Part shown: positions 17,135-39,082 of the stretch, piece by piece
Numbering within the stretch: position 1 is the stretch's first letter
Layout of the letters: each line of letters begins with the position of its first letter
Source: an uncultured Campylobacterales bacterium
GTDB taxonomy: Bacteria; Campylobacterota; Campylobacteria; Campylobacterales; Sulfurimonadaceae
Reading direction: 5' to 3'
NCBI GenBank assembly: GCA_903892995.1
Contig: CAITKP010000078.1
Location: 1 to 39,120, forward strand
Length of the DNA: 39,120 bases
The notes under the pieces: model-generated
Databases searched by the model: none
Told to the model about the DNA's origin: nothing
Seen by the model: the letters and a program-made list of their open reading frames with translations, nothing else
Program-made: the position numbers and the translations under genes

Positions 17135-17845
17135 TTACTCCAAGCTATAATCAATAGGCAAGAGGATATCGTACTTCTCTTGATTGAGCTCTTTTGGAAT
17201 CGGTTTGACTTTTGCTAGAGCGGTGATGATTTTTACTGCTGCATCATCAAGAAGGGCAAATCCTGAACTCTTTTGCAAAGAGATCTGTGTAATTGTTCCA
17301 TCAGCGAGGATGATAAAGTGTACATACGCGACTCCCGTTTGACTCAGGCGTTTGGCATTTTTAGGATAGGTTTTTAATTTCTCTGCATTTTGACGCACAT
17401 AAGCAAGATAGGCGTTTTGAACCTTTTTTGTATCTACTGTCGGTGCTTGGGGGGCTTGTTTTTGAACTATCTTTTGTTCGACTCTTGGTTCAACCTTCTG
17501 CTCTACTTTTGCTTGCTCTTTAACAGCCTCTTGCTGTTTTACGATTGGTTGTTCTACGGGCTTTGGCAAAGCTTTAGGCACCACTTGTTCTGTCGGTTTT
17601 GTAACAGGCTTGGTAATGACGTTTGGCATAGGCACTACAACAGGCTTTTCTATTGGCTTTGGTGGCTCTTTTTGTTCCACTTTTGGCTGAGGTGGTTGAG
17701 GTTTTTGAGGCTGAACTACTGTTATAATAGTCACAGGGACCACTTTTGGTTTTTGTGGCTCTTTATAGTGCAACATCCAAAAAAGCATTCCAGCCGCAAT
17801 GCTTACATGTAAGGCTATTGAGAATGCAAAACTTTTTTTCATCAT
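17135..17845 (-). CDS. tonB: Energy transducer TonB
   Basis: TonB carries proton-motive energy from ExbB/ExbD to outer-membrane receptors. Residues about 5-25 (FAFSIALHVSIAAGMLFWML) form the single membrane anchor with the conserved Ser/His face. A Pro/Lys/Glu/Gln/Val-rich spacer follows to about residue 140. The C-terminal domain has the family pattern YPKNAKRLSQTGVAYVHFII then LADGTITQISLQKSSG and LDDAAVKII. It begins 4 bases after the exbD stop, in the exbB-exbD-tonB order. A palindrome copy (17803-17812) lies in the membrane-anchor codons. Confidence 0.93.
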   Translation of the reverse strand: MMKKSFAFSIALHVSIAAGMLFWMLHYKEPQKPKVVPVTIITVVQPQKPQPPQPKVEQKEPPKPIEKPVVVPMPNVITKPVTKPTEQVVPKALPKPVEQPIVKQQEAVKEQAKVEQKVEPRVEQKIVQKQAPQAPTVDTKKVQNAYLAYVRQNAEKLKTYPKNAKRLSQTGVAYVHFIILADGTITQISLQKSSGFALLDDAAVKIITALAKVKPIPKELNQEKYDILLPIDYSLE

Positions 17846-17849
17846 CGTT

Positions 17850-18227
17850 TTAATTTCTCTTGGTTGCTATAGAGATATGGGTATATCCCGCTTGCGTCAA
17901 AGTGTCAATCGTTCCTACAAAGTAATCATAGTTCATCTTCGCATCGCCATTTATGACAATAGTGCTCTCTTTAGAGTTTTTTGCTAAAAGTGTAGGAAGT
18001 GCCTCTTTGGTAGTTGCTACTCCATCAAGAAAAATTTTACCCTCATTGTTAAGTGTGATATCAATGGGCTTTTCTATCTTTACAGGCTTTGCAGAAGCTT
18101 GAGGCAGATCTACTTTGATGACACCCTTTGCTATGAAAGTTGCAGTAGTGAGAACAATAGCTAAAAGAACAAGCATAATGTCTATAAATGGAATGACATT
18201 AATAGACTCTATCTTCTTAATCGCCAT
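17850..18227 (-). CDS. exbD: ExbD-type proton channel subunit
   Basis: This inner-membrane protein works with ExbB to power TonB. After a short cytoplasmic start (MAIKKIESINV) the only membrane segment, IPFIDIMLVLLAIVLTTATF, holds the essential Asp of the ExbD/TolR family. The periplasmic part ends with INGDAKMNYDYFVGTIDTLT and HISIATKRN. At 125 residues it is of normal length. The start overlaps exbB by 11 bases. Confidence 0.93.
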   Translation of the reverse strand: MAIKKIESINVIPFIDIMLVLLAIVLTTATFIAKGVIKVDLPQASAKPVKIEKPIDITLNNEGKIFLDGVATTKEALPTLLAKNSKESTIVINGDAKMNYDYFVGTIDTLTQAGYTHISIATKRN

Positions 18228-18642
18228 TTTTGATCTCCCATCTCATGATGAGCACTTCCATCTTTCTCACTAAATAGTTATGAAAGATAATAGAGGGAAT
18301 CGCTACAAGTAAACCAAAAGCAGTTGCTTTGAGTGCAAGTGCAAGACCCGTCATAATAGCGCCGCTATCTGTCATCCCATTTGCTCCAATAGCAAAGAAA
18401 GTAAGGATGATACCAAACACCGTTCCAAGCAGACCAACGTAAGGAGCGTTGGAAGCTATGGTTGAGATGATAGTGAGATTATTTCCCGTATCGATCTCTA
18501 GCTCTTTTTTACTAACATAAGTGCTAACATCAATCTTTTTATAAAAGAATATGCGCTCAAATCCGACAGCAAAGGTCGTGATGCTCATAAGGCCTAATAT
18601 GCTAAAGACGATGATGTCAAGTAGTTCTTTGTAATTTTCCAT
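18217..18642 (-). CDS. exbB: ExbB-type proton channel subunit, short form
   Basis: This MotA/TolQ/ExbB family protein of 141 residues is the short form common in Campylobacterota. It has an N-terminal membrane segment (IIVFSILGLMSITTFAVGFE) and then the two channel-lining segments: TIASNAPYVGLLGTVFGIIL with TFFAIG, and GLALALKATAFGLLVAIPSI. It is expected to form the ExbB pentamer around ExbD. It starts the exbB-exbD-tonB trio, 118 bases after the receptor gene; that gap has two hairpins, so partial termination or processing may separate the stoichiometric needs of receptor and motor. Confidence 0.92.
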   Translation of the reverse strand: MENYKELLDIIVFSILGLMSITTFAVGFERIFFYKKIDVSTYVSKKELEIDTGNNLTIISTIASNAPYVGLLGTVFGIILTFFAIGANGMTDSGAIMTGLALALKATAFGLLVAIPSIIFHNYLVRKMEVLIMRWEIKNGD

Positions 18643-18760: not shown

Positions 18761-20878
18761 TTAGAATGTTGCTTTTACGCCTGCGTAGATCGTTCGTCCA
18801 CGAAGTGGTCCCCAAGTGTATGCTGTGTCAAATCCGCCAGTAGCATCATAAAAGAGTGGAGACTGTACATCTGTTTGCACAAAATCAAAGAGGTTTTTTG
18901 CTCCAGCGTAGATGCTAAAGTTTTTATTGAGTTTTTTAGAAACTTTGAGATCAACTGTCATATAAGATGGTGCTGTTTGATTTTTAGGCTGTGAGACATT
19001 TGTTCCATCGTAAACATCATACCCCTCATACCCATACTGTGAAAGATCACGAGAACCTACCCAAATCGCTTCACCATAAATATCCCATCCATTCGCATCA
19101 TAGTCAGCACTCAAGCGTGCACGCTGTTCAATTGGTGCTAGAGTCATTAGAGATTTATAATTACTATCATATTTATAGTATTCATAAGAGCCTGAAAGAG
19201 AGAGTTTGTTATTTACAACATATCCGACGACGATATCGCTTTCTACTACTTTTACATCATTTTTACTATTGGTTAACGTAGGTGTTCCGGCTCTATCTTC
19301 GATAAAAGCGAGATCTTTTACCTGTGTATAAGCAGCAGAACCTGTAACGCTCAAGCCATCTTTGTTATACGCTAAAGAGTAAGTCGCTCCATTTGATTTT
19401 TCAATAGAGTTGATATCCATACCAAATCCACTATCTAAAAAACCATGCTCTGATTCAAAGAATGATAAAGGTGAACGGTATCCCATTCCCCAGCTTAGGC
19501 GTGAAGTCAGGTATGAAGTATGGTCATGACGATAGAGTAAACGAGGAACAAGTAAAAAATCATCTATTTCATTGCCTTTGGCAGTTTGTGCCAGCCAGTT
19601 TGTTGTGATTTTTTCTCCACGCAGTGCAATGGTGAGTTGATCGACATTGCTAAGCGTCCAAGCGTCTTGCCCATAAACTCCATATGCTCCATAATCAAAA
19701 TCATCTGTTGTTTTATTGTTTTGTACATAATAGAAATTTGACTGTGAACGTGCTTGTTCTACTTTTGTATCAACACCATAAGTTAAAAAGTGATTATCAT
19801 TTAAAGCATGGTCTATTTTTAGGTCTCCAAAATAGGTTTTATCTGTGTTCGCATAATCAGCACCCTCATATAAAGAGTCTTGTTTTTGCTCTGAGTAGGC
19901 CAATGTCGTTTGTAAACTCATCGTATCATTGAGGATATGGTGCTCTTTTGCATAAACTTCATCCCGCGTTGTGTTGATGACTTCTATCATCTGCATAGGC
20001 TGACCCGTATATTGATTATTGATATTGCTAACCCCAGTGTTACCAAAGCTTGTATTATCAACATTTGGATCATAGTTTGCTATCGCAGAGTTCTCAGAAA
20101 CCATCGTCCCGCCTTTTACATCGGAAGTAAAGTGAGCAGCCCTGACATCGATGGAGTCATAAGGAGAGAATTTGTGAGTGAGCATAATCGAAATCGCTTG
20201 ATTTTTCATAGAAGGAGATTCGCTGACACCGTTGTTGTCACGATCGACTTGCGCTTGTTCGTGTGAAGATGCTGAAACCAAAATCCCTGTTTGTTTATCA
20301 TCACTCATCGCTTCGCCGAGAATCGAGTAGTTTTTCTCTCCTAAAGTTCCCATAGACACATCGAATTCGACCCCATTTTTATAGGGGCGTCTTGGAATAA
20401 TATTGATTGTGCCTCCAATGGCTTCTGGTGCAGTGAGTGAAGCTCCCGCACCGCGAGTGATTTGAATGTCTTGGATATCAGAAGTTCCAATAGCATCGGC
20501 TCCATAAAAGCTTGATACTGTTGAGTTAAAAGGGATGCTATTGACTAAAATAGTTGTGTGATCTCCTGTGAGCCCATTGAGCTGTACACGTTTTAAACCA
20601 CAAATAGAACAGCCAGTCTGTACATTTGCACCCGCTTGTTGACTGATTGCCTCAGAAAGAGTTGCGGCTTGAGAATGCTCAATCTCTTTTTTATCGATCA
20701 CTTCTGTTTTTTCTATTGCGTCTTGAAGCATTCTTCTTTGTTGAACTTTTGTAATAGTTTTTGAGTTATTACTATCACTATCAGAACCATTAACAGTTAT
20801 GGAATTAAGCTGAATATTATCAGCAAACGCGGTTGTAGAAATTGCTGCACATGCAACAACAGAGAGTAATTTTTTCAT
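18761..20878 (-). CDS. TonB-dependent outer-membrane receptor, 705 aa
   Basis: A signal peptide (to about residue 19, AISTTAFA) is followed by a TonB-box-like stretch (IQLNSITVNG), a plug domain and a 22-strand-type barrel ending in aromatic F (GRTIYAGVKATF). The plug contains ANVQTGCSICGLKRVQLNGL (Cys90, Cys93) and GDHTTILVNSIPF, then ITRGAGASLTAPEAIGGTIN. The CxxC in the plug is unusual and hints at a metal, metal-complex or cofactor ligand, but I cannot name the substrate. Upstream is a small His/Cys-rich exported protein and downstream exbB-exbD-tonB. The ribosome-binding site lies in one arm of an inverted repeat whose other arm covers the upstream stop codon. Confidence 0.9.
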   Translation of the reverse strand: MKKLLSVVACAAISTTAFADNIQLNSITVNGSDSDSNNSKTITKVQQRRMLQDAIEKTEVIDKKEIEHSQAATLSEAISQQAGANVQTGCSICGLKRVQLNGLTGDHTTILVNSIPFNSTVSSFYGADAIGTSDIQDIQITRGAGASLTAPEAIGGTINIIPRRPYKNGVEFDVSMGTLGEKNYSILGEAMSDDKQTGILVSASSHEQAQVDRDNNGVSESPSMKNQAISIMLTHKFSPYDSIDVRAAHFTSDVKGGTMVSENSAIANYDPNVDNTSFGNTGVSNINNQYTGQPMQMIEVINTTRDEVYAKEHHILNDTMSLQTTLAYSEQKQDSLYEGADYANTDKTYFGDLKIDHALNDNHFLTYGVDTKVEQARSQSNFYYVQNNKTTDDFDYGAYGVYGQDAWTLSNVDQLTIALRGEKITTNWLAQTAKGNEIDDFLLVPRLLYRHDHTSYLTSRLSWGMGYRSPLSFFESEHGFLDSGFGMDINSIEKSNGATYSLAYNKDGLSVTGSAAYTQVKDLAFIEDRAGTPTLTNSKNDVKVVESDIVVGYVVNNKLSLSGSYEYYKYDSNYKSLMTLAPIEQRARLSADYDANGWDIYGEAIWVGSRDLSQYGYEGYDVYDGTNVSQPKNQTAPSYMTVDLKVSKKLNKNFSIYAGAKNLFDFVQTDVQSPLFYDATGGFDTAYTWGPLRGRTIYAGVKATF

Positions 20879-20886
20879 AGTAATAT

Positions 20887-20939
20887 CCTAATCTTATAAA
20901 TAATATTTGTAGTAAATGTGTTATGTATTGAAGATTAGG
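20887..20939 (-). promoter_or_regulatory. Inverted repeat sequestering the receptor ribosome-binding site
   Basis: CCTAATCTT (20887-20895) and AAGATTAGG (20931-20939) are perfect 9-base complements with 35 bases between. In the mRNA the 5' arm includes the TAA stop of the small gene and the 3' arm holds the AGG of the receptor Shine-Dalgarno (AGGA, 7 bases from ATG). A ribosome finishing the small gene would open the stem, giving translational coupling. Confidence 0.6.
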
Positions 20940-21192
20940 CGAGTGGAGGAGCTCTGCTGCGAGCTTGTAAAAGTAAAGGCTTTTGTTCGCTTTGTGGTTG
21001 AACAATATATTCAGCGAAACTTTGTGTAACAACTGTTTTAGATGGTGCATCGACCGGGACGGCTGGAGTGTGTGAAAGGGTACAAACATTACAGTTTTCA
21101 CCAAGATGATGGGAGTGAGAAACTTCATGCACGATACCCATGAAGATGGAAAGAATATAAACTATGGCTAACAATCGTTTCATAGTTCGCAT
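20935..21192 (-). CDS. Small exported His/Cys-rich protein, 85 aa (DUF2946-like?)
   Basis: A basic start and a hydrophobic stretch (LLAIVYILSIFMGIVHEV) serve as signal or anchor. Then comes a potential metal site with His26, His28, His29 (HSHH), Cys34, Cys37 (CNVC) and His41. The C-terminus ends ARSRAPPLA, like the RxPP tail I associate with DUF2946 proteins, which often accompany copper or other metal TonB receptors; this family link is not verified. It is the first gene of the receptor operon. The start at 21190-21192 is placed by the A/G-rich run just upstream; a second ATG is three codons further. Nine consecutive G lie two bases before the ATG. Confidence 0.7.
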   Translation of the reverse strand: MRTMKRLLAIVYILSIFMGIVHEVSHSHHLGENCNVCTLSHTPAVPVDAPSKTVVTQSFAEYIVQPQSEQKPLLLQARSRAPPLA

Positions 21193-21194
21193 AA

Positions 21195-21203
21195 CCCCCC
21201 CCC
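21195..21203 (-). repeat. Homopolymeric G tract (G9) in the ribosome-binding region
   Basis: Nine G on the minus strand (C9 on plus), two bases upstream of the ATG of the small exported protein and directly after GAA, so it forms the Shine-Dalgarno. It stands out in AT-rich DNA. Tracts of this kind in Campylobacter and Helicobacter are slippage hot spots that cause phase variation. Confidence 0.8.
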
Positions 21204-21219: not shown

Positions 21220-21225
21220 AGTATA
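21220..21225 (-). promoter_or_regulatory. -10 box of the TonB-receptor operon
   Basis: TATACT on the minus strand, 27 bases before the ATG of the small exported protein. The predicted short leader contains the G9 tract. A divergent promoter for the helicase gene lies about 45 bases away. Confidence 0.45.
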
Positions 21226-21269
21226 ACATTTTTAAAATAGCTGTAACTTTCATAATGCTGGTAATTGGA

Positions 21270-38260: not shown

Positions 38261-38335
38261 GCGGGAATAGCTCAGTGGTAGAGCACAACCTTGCCAAGGT
38301 TGGGGTCGCGAGTTCGAACCTCGTTTCCCGCTCCA
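38261..38335 (+). tRNA. tRNA-Gly (GCC)
   Basis: Acceptor GCGGGAA/TTCCCGC, anticodon stem CAACC/GGTTG with loop TTGCCAA, TTCGAAC in the T loop, CCA encoded. Confidence 0.95.
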
Positions 38336-38377
38336 TATTTTGAAATTATTTTATTAGTGTCAAATTAGTATGTATCT

Positions 38378-38464
38378 GCCCGGATGGCGAAATCGGTAGA
38401 CGCAAGGGACTTAAAATCCCTCGGTGGTAACACTGTGCCGGTTCAAGTCCGGCTCCGGGCACCA
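38378..38464 (+). tRNA. tRNA-Leu (TAA)
   Basis: Acceptor GCCCGGA/TCCGGGC, anticodon stem AGGGA/TCCCT with loop CTTAAAA, long variable arm typical of Leu, CCA encoded. Confidence 0.95.
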
Positions 38465-38486
38465 TAAAATTGATAATAAACGAACT

Positions 38487-38560
38487 GGCGCCATCGCCAA
38501 GTGGTAAGGCCGGAGCCTGCAAAGCTTCTATCCCCAGTTCAAATCTGGGTGGCGCCTCCA
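38487..38560 (+). tRNA. tRNA-Cys (GCA)
   Basis: Acceptor GGCGCCA/TGGCGCC, anticodon stem GGAGC/GCTTC (one G-T pair) with loop CTGCAAA, T loop TTCAAAT, CCA encoded. Confidence 0.94.
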
Positions 38561-38588
38561 AATTTATTATTAAACTTACAATATTCGT

Positions 38589-38678
38589 GGATAGATGGCA
38601 GAGCTTGGTTTAATGCACCGGTCTTGAAAACCGGCGAGGGTCATACCTCCCAGGGTTCGAATCCCTGTCTGTCCACCA
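38589..38678 (+). tRNA. tRNA-Ser (TGA)
   Basis: Acceptor GGATAGA/TCTGTCC, anticodon stem CCGGT/ACCGG with loop CTTGAAA, long variable arm, CCA encoded. Confidence 0.94.
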
Positions 38679-38713
38679 CTAAATAGAAAATAATCAGAAA
38701 AATGAAAAAACTT

Positions 38714-38803
38714 GGATAGATGGGTGAGCGGCTGAAACCACATCCCTGCTAAGGATGCGTACTCGTAAGGGTACCGAGGGTTCGAACCCCTCTCTGTCCA
38801 CCA
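38714..38803 (+). tRNA. tRNA-Ser (GCT)
   Basis: Acceptor GGATAGA/TCTGTCC, identical to the preceding Ser tRNA; anticodon stem CATCC/GGATG with loop CTGCTAA; long variable arm; CCA encoded. Confidence 0.94.
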
Positions 38804-38817
38804 CCAAACAGAAATAT

Positions 38818-38892
38818 TCCGAATTAGCTCAGCGGTAGAGTAGGTGACTGTTAATCACTTGGCCACTGGTTCGAATCCAGTATTCGGAGCCA
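38818..38892 (+). tRNA. tRNA-Asn (GTT)
   Basis: Acceptor TCCGAAT/ATTCGGA, anticodon loop CTGTTAA on a GGTGA/TCACT stem, T loop TTCGAAT, CCA encoded. Confidence 0.94.
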
Positions 38893-38918
38893 CAGACGAC
38901 TATAAAATTACTTCTTAT

Positions 38919-38993
38919 TGGGGATTCGCCAAGCGGTAAGGCCTCGGTTTTTGGTACCGATATTCACAGGTTCGAATCCTGTATCCCCATCCA
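38919..38993 (+). tRNA. tRNA-Gln (TTG)
   Basis: Acceptor TGGGGAT/ATCCCCA, anticodon stem TCGGT/ACCGA with loop TTTTGGT, CCA encoded. In Campylobacterota Gln-tRNA is normally made through GatCAB amidation. Confidence 0.94.
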
Positions 38994-39005
38994 CAACACA
39001 AACAC

Positions 39006-39082
<77 letters not shown>

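Follow-up and report, generated by a model that had tools for sequence, protein, structure and literature searches.

A G9 tract in the Shine-Dalgarno sequence of a putative leader ORF that heads a TonB receptor operon in an uncultured Campylobacterales bacterium

Does a run of nine G immediately upstream of a TonB receptor operon act as a phase-variation switch? An earlier note on a 39,120-nucleotide stretch of DNA from an uncultured Campylobacterales bacterium (hereafter the window) had proposed that it might, on the grounds that poly-G tracts often control surface genes in Campylobacter and Helicobacter. Here we report that the tract most probably constitutes the Shine-Dalgarno sequence (SD) of a leader ORF, similar to those of CruR and CutF, that heads a receptor-ExbB-ExbD-TonB operon. 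The comparison of leader-receptor pairs, poly-G tracts in related genomes, and the predicted pairing with the 16S rRNA tail provide some insight into what a change in the length of the tract might mean for the expression of this operon.

The G9 tract and its start codon

On the plus strand positions 21195-21203 are nine C, i.e., G9 on the minus strand (21203-21195), where the surrounding sequence reads TATACTTTCAAAAAATTTAGAAGGGGGGGGGTTATGCGAACTATGAAACG. The tract is followed by TT and the ATG at 21192-21190, which confirms its placement two bases before the start codon. It is the sole G/C run of at least 7 in the window (39,120 bases, 38.7% G+C), the runners-up being two 6-mers, and one in 100 dinucleotide shuffles of the window matched its count of 7-mers; hence, the run is indeed unusual in such AT-rich DNA, as had been pointed out. 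Genome-wide there are five G/C runs of at least 9, two of which are 10 long, while approximately 0.25 to 0.8 would be expected by extrapolation from the 31 runs of at least 6; the congeneric genomes have between 0 and 4 runs of at least 9 each. Over eight genomes the spectrum comprises 203 runs of length 6-7, five of 8, ten of 9 and four of 10, with an upturn at 9, and poly-G lengths in Campylobacter peak at 9 (53%) and 10 (26%) (PMC6321876). We conclude that the G9 run is real and far beyond chance.

For the pairing with the 16S rRNA tail we used the 16S end of a congener (G001). The model predicts that AAGGGGG pairs with CCUCCUU with one G-U wobble, and given the ATG 2 nt downstream this supports the suggestion that the tract is the SD itself. 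The -10 box said to lie near the tract is also present, since an extended -10, TGTTATACT (hexamer 21225-21220), is located 16 nt upstream of G9 and is conserved in the orthologue of G005. Moreover, the start codon chosen in the earlier note is the conserved one: the orthologues align from the first ATG, and an alternative in-frame ATG 9 nt downstream of the start is ATA in G005. An inverted repeat around the promoter, TGAAAGT/ACTTTCA, was set aside because G005 keeps one arm only. The features of the locus are listed in Table 1.

Table 1. Features of the G9 tract, the putative leader ORF and the receptor operon (window positions)
Feature	Positions	Strand	Basis
-35-like element GTTACA	21242-21247	-	sequence
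Extended -10 (TGn TATACT)	21220..21225	-	same -10 in orthologue G005
G9 tract, homopolymeric SD (AAGGGGGGGGG) of the leader ORF	21195..21203	-	sequence, pairing model, orthologous SDs
Leader ORF, 85 aa, DUF2946-like (CruR/CutF type), ATG 21192-21190	20935..21192	-	
CxxC codons (C34-N-V-C37), metal-binding motif of CruR	21082..21093	-	PMC9426467
Codons of C-terminal RAPP arrest-like motif, residues 80-83	20944..20955	-	PMC9426467, PMC12992588
Hairpin 5' arm CCUAAUCUU, spans last leader codon and stop	20931..20939	-	
Hairpin 3' arm AAGAUUAGG, over most of receptor SD (AGGA 20889-20886)	20887..20895	-	
TonB-dependent receptor, 705 aa, plug with GCSICGL motif	18761..20878	-	
ExbB	18217..18642	-	
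ExbD	17850..18227	-	
TonB	17135..17845	-	

The leader ORF and the receptor operon

The tract had been assigned to the first gene of the receptor operon. The operon does contain a TonB receptor gene, but the first gene encodes a leader peptide and the receptor is second (the order being leader, TonB receptor, ExbB, ExbD, TonB). The leader is thus the first gene of a predicted metal-uptake operon, and the leader-receptor pair is kept in 14 genomes, the window included, from two genera. The N terminus of the predicted product is basic and hydrophobic, the protein contains H-x3-H-x-HH and CxxC (residues 34-37), and RAPP occupies residues 80-83 of 85, two residues before the C-terminal end. Against Pfam DUF2946 (PF11162) the product scored 22.0 bits (E 3e-4), which is just below the cut-off of 23.7, and three of the 12 aligned leader orthologues matched this family at E 0.01. 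The alignment shows a basic N terminus and then a hydrophobic stretch in the orthologues, and the invariant residues in the 12 leaders include three histidines, C34, R78, R80, P82 and P83. R[A/S]PP plus two final residues is present in all 13 tabulated leaders and CxxC in 10 of them, those of G119, G107 and G099 being without it; in the 14th leader (G117) CEVC and RSPP were read in the DNA. The spacing between CxxC and RxPP is 42 residues in every leader that has both motifs, compared to 45 in CruR/CutF. The three leaders that lack CxxC (L239, L243 and L245) have a longer His-rich stretch, possibly reflecting a different metal specificity.

CruR and CutF are DUF2946 proteins encoded by known leader ORFs (PMC9426467, PMC9973294). 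In CruR, CxxC and RAPP, 45 residues apart, render a TonB receptor copper-responsive through arrest and Rho (PMC9426467), arrest taking place when the two prolines occupy the P and A sites (PMC12992588), while translation of the CutF leader opens a stem-loop that shields the cutO SD (PMC9973294). The Bordetella pertussis operon (cruR-bfrG/crtA-bp2921; PMC9426467) resembles the window in having a small first gene followed by a TonB-dependent receptor gene, and the two leaders share CxxC, RAPP near the C terminus and a fixed motif spacing. However, CruR is longer (145 vs 85 aa) with a spacing of 45 instead of 42 residues; its intergenic region is 162 bp with Rho termination, whereas that of the window is 56 nt long and has a hairpin covering most of the receptor SD. 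Downstream the CruR operon has a PepSY_TM gene where the window has ExbB-ExbD-TonB, and unlike CruR the window leader has a poly-G SD. The arrangement in Rhodobacter capsulatus (cutFOG; PMC9973294), in which a translated leader opens an SD-shielding stem-loop, appears alike at the sequence level, and both leaders share a cysteine motif and a C-terminal proline-rich motif; CutF, however, has CxxxC and controls a multicopper oxidase, while the window leader has CxxC and precedes a TonB receptor. Judged by its motifs, the leader looks like a copper sensor of the CruR/CutF type.

The receptor has an SD of its own, AGGA (20889-20886), which is found in all orthologues, and starts 56 nt past the leader stop. 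The gene directly under the tract is the leader, which does not fit the idea of a surface receptor controlled by the tract. The CutF-type feature, an intergenic stem-loop over the SD of the next gene, is present in the window: CCUAAUCUU pairs with AAGAUUAGG in a perfect 9-bp helix of -9.2 kcal/mol, with z = -3.4 for the intergenic stretch alone and z = -1.7 when more flanking sequence is included. The hairpin is strong in four of the 14 (window, G005, G035 and G117), most other orthologues can form 5 to 8 pairs in this register but with weak folding, and among the 14 the fold was not found in G085, G107 and G049. The summed helix length was 102 compared to 84 with reshuffled partners (none of 20,000 shuffles), and p was 0.0009 for eight divergent sequences, for which the four positions after the stop alone gave p 0.25. 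This result is suggestive only, because the register had been picked from the window and related sequences were compared.

If the leader works as CruR and CutF do, a ribosome that loads at the G run would translate it as far as RAPP and stall there, Pro82 being in the P site. We infer that the front edge of the paused ribosome would then be at approximately leader base 259-260, within the hairpin's 5' arm (bases 254-262), most of which it would cover. The receptor SD would be freed (or Rho blocked) and the receptor made, and copper bound to the nascent CxxC would alter the pause. The tract would then set how frequently ribosomes load on the sensor; it is long enough to slip, but a one-G change should cause a gradual shift in expression only.

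With respect to the surroundings, the receptor plug carries QTGCSICGL in the window, and TGCSICGL or TGCSVCGL is conserved (window, L236-L249), representing a second cysteine pair in the operon. A search of solved structures with the receptor returned weak matches only, to CirA and BtuB1. The closest named relatives of the helicase adjoining the operon are from Sulfurimonadaceae and other Campylobacterales MAGs, and in two other near relatives (L011 and L012) the helicase does not have the operon next to it. No further copies of the locus were found in a scan of viral contigs. Eight tRNA genes are clustered at 38261-39079 on the plus strand, and besides tRNA no Rfam families were found within the window.

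Tract length among orthologues and poly-G tracts in the family

The leader SD has G9 in the window, G8 in G085, G6 in G111, G5 in G121 and G071, G4 in G119, G107, G133 (then AG) and G005 (as GGAGGGG), and G3 in G099, while it is AAGGAGG-like in G073, G117, G035 and G049. Tract length thus varies between species: across the 14 leader-receptor pairs the G run ranges from 2 to 9 in an SD that is purine-rich in every orthologue, and only two of the 14 have at least 8 G. On this comparison G9 is therefore not a maintained long tract but stands at one extreme of an evolutionary range, the other being AAGGAGG. A contingency locus would be expected to keep its repeat long in the orthologues, which is not what was found.

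To predict how tract length would influence initiation, we summed the pairing between the leader and the 16S tail ACCUCCUUU over registers for G3 to G14 using six spacing rules. The SD model rules are E. coli-like and one of the spacing rules is a poor fit for several orthologues. With this model and relative to G9, G8 gave 0.64 to 1.04 and G10 0.96 to 1.22, and the range for G10 to G14 was 0.91 to 1.63; the rise below G8 depended strongly on the spacing assumed. The predicted response is flat around G9 because any five G can pair with CCUCC via one wobble such that the SD slides. Adding or removing one G should therefore, according to the model, move expression gradually only. As for the proposed effect of length on initiation, the modelled change is graded and amounts to approximately 1.6-fold per G at most.

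In the genus, five of the 14 runs of at least 9 (those of the window, L042, L043, L034 and L036) are positioned 2 to 6 nt upstream of a real gene's ATG, compared with at most 6 of the 208 runs that are 6 to 8 long (Fisher p 0.0002). This excess is partly expected since SDs are G-rich and runs in coding sequences cannot grow freely. Among 228 genomes of the family the pattern G9-H-N1-8-ATG occurs at approximately 100 sites and the reversed pattern at approximately 47. Of the sites retrieved, 40, including the window, lie before an ORF of at least 70 aa (length 9 in 32, 10 in seven and 11 in one). The genes behind these G9-G11 SDs include those for response regulators, a chemoreceptor, ManC, an OprD-like porin and a SulP transporter. 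Most frequent among them are response regulators and GGDEF and EAL domains, but the neighbouring control genes also include signalling proteins. A functional or surface bias was sought among these family genes and is not clear; the proposed association of such tracts with surface genes finds no clear counterpart here. At seven of the 40 sites the tract also lies inside the 3' end of the upstream ORF; the window was discounted as an eighth, its upstream ORF being antisense to the helicase. Homologous response-regulator genes (L203, L207 and L209) in two Sulfurimonadaceae genomes have a G9 positioned 6 to 9 nt before the start and in the 3' end of the upstream gene, where slippage would alter the C terminus of the upstream product as well as the junction; this tract is missing in three other readable relatives. 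The literature searched, which is incomplete in its coverage, contained no account of a poly-G SD from this phylum.

As regards slippage, MutL was not detectable in the genome (G000), a Sulfurimonadaceae MAG, using a search that was positive in 14 of 14 control genomes, and one MutS-like protein scored below the mutS1 cut-off. A G10 tract (L005; G000:C92:5758-5767) lies within an MBOAT acyltransferase gene, the halves of which are in different frames at the tract; this represents either phase variation by poly-G in its classical arrangement or an error of the assembly. Slippage at G9 is plausible given the lack of a detectable MutL and this second tract that splits a gene. These two observations, together with a tract that is in the slippage-prone length class and forms an SD, and with a TonB receptor gene in the operon, support the proposal of a phase-variable receptor operon in part. 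Elsewhere, a congener has in-frame G10 tracts in a membrane acyltransferase gene (Acyl_transf_3; L044, G006:C23:15796-15805) and in a HisF-like gene (L054, G006:C89:940-949). In the genome of the window another G9/C9 (L004, G000:C87:6004-6012) belongs to a G/C inverted repeat that lies downstream of a short gene, and this gene by eye resembles that of a filamentous-phage coat protein.

Alternative explanations and implications

Our best reading is that the tract is a slippage-prone homopolymeric SD, possibly a weak gain knob, and not an ON/OFF switch; nothing found here indicates that it turns the receptor ON and OFF. If it instead were a contingency locus, slippage at G9 would switch the receptor operon between expression states and be selected for population heterogeneity. 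Such a locus would agree with a length of 9, the modal poly-G length in Campylobacter (PMC6321876), with the undetectable MutL and the gene split at G10 in G000, and with five of the 14 genus runs of at least 9 being located exactly in the SD position. Nevertheless, the long tract is present in two of 14 orthologues only, the pairing model allows at most approximately 1.6-fold per G, and the RBS-tract genes of the family have no clear surface bias, which makes this explanation unlikely. The Campylobacter contingency tracts themselves (PhasomeIt; PMC6321876) belong to the same 9 to 10 G length class in an AT-rich relative, but 77% are within ORFs and shift the frame, whereas the window tract is noncoding and in an SD. 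Neutral drift, with close to an even chance of being correct, concerns the tract only and is compatible with a CruR/CutF-type leader: a G-rich SD could grow by slippage because noncoding indels cost little, its length being without consequence. The G-run lengths of the orthologous SDs are spread continuously and the predicted response is flat around G9, and since G runs cannot grow in frame within coding DNA, long runs are expected mainly outside it; the genus excess of runs of at least 9 at SDs (Fisher p 0.0002) is at odds with drift, although selection against frameshifts confounds this comparison.

Regulation at the mRNA level by other means was also considered. The tlpB leader of Helicobacter pylori carries a homopolymeric G-repeat in its 5' UTR to which RepG binds (PMC8295292); the window tract, likewise in Campylobacterota, would be similar in acting on the mRNA with graded effects. 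That repeat, however, is a small-RNA target of strain-variable length, while the window tract is an SD with no small RNA known. Translational repression by a C/U-rich small RNA that binds to the G-tract SD, to a degree set by the length of the tract, would be in keeping with the recurrence of G-tract SDs on many genes of the family, but with tRNA as the sole Rfam family in the window we regard this as very improbable. Indels in a leader homopolymer change translation in the case of the Mycobacterium tuberculosis espR 5' UTR poly-G (PMC11898584), which is proposed to work via a G/C hairpin in the UTR, whereas the window tract is the SD itself. It is doubtful, finally, that the leader is an ordinary small exported metal-binding protein with the receptor being translated independently from its own SD. 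Although the AGGA SD in all orthologues and a hairpin that is weak or absent in many of them accord with independent translation, every orthologue has the C-terminal RxPP, an arrest-type motif that is under-represented in bacterial proteomes (PMC12992588), and the helix is longer than with reshuffled partners. Extending our preferred reading of the tract as a slippage-prone SD, a mutable SD might set leader loading such that slippage tunes the gain of a copper switch, and the G9-G11 SDs of the Sulfurimonadaceae might be general heritable expression knobs; this extension is speculative, and we would not expect it to hold.

The main texts of the CruR and CutF reports do not name Campylobacterota as hosts of such leaders. 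From the window and its 13 orthologues it would appear that free-living Campylobacterota use CruR/CutF-type leaders before a TonB receptor, having CruR-like motifs and in some cases a CutF-like hairpin that masks the SD. If the G-run SD slips, heritable slippage would feed into a metal sensor. Moreover, the approximately 40 genes of the family with G9 to G11 SDs represent a test set for the relation between tract length and initiation outside pathogens.
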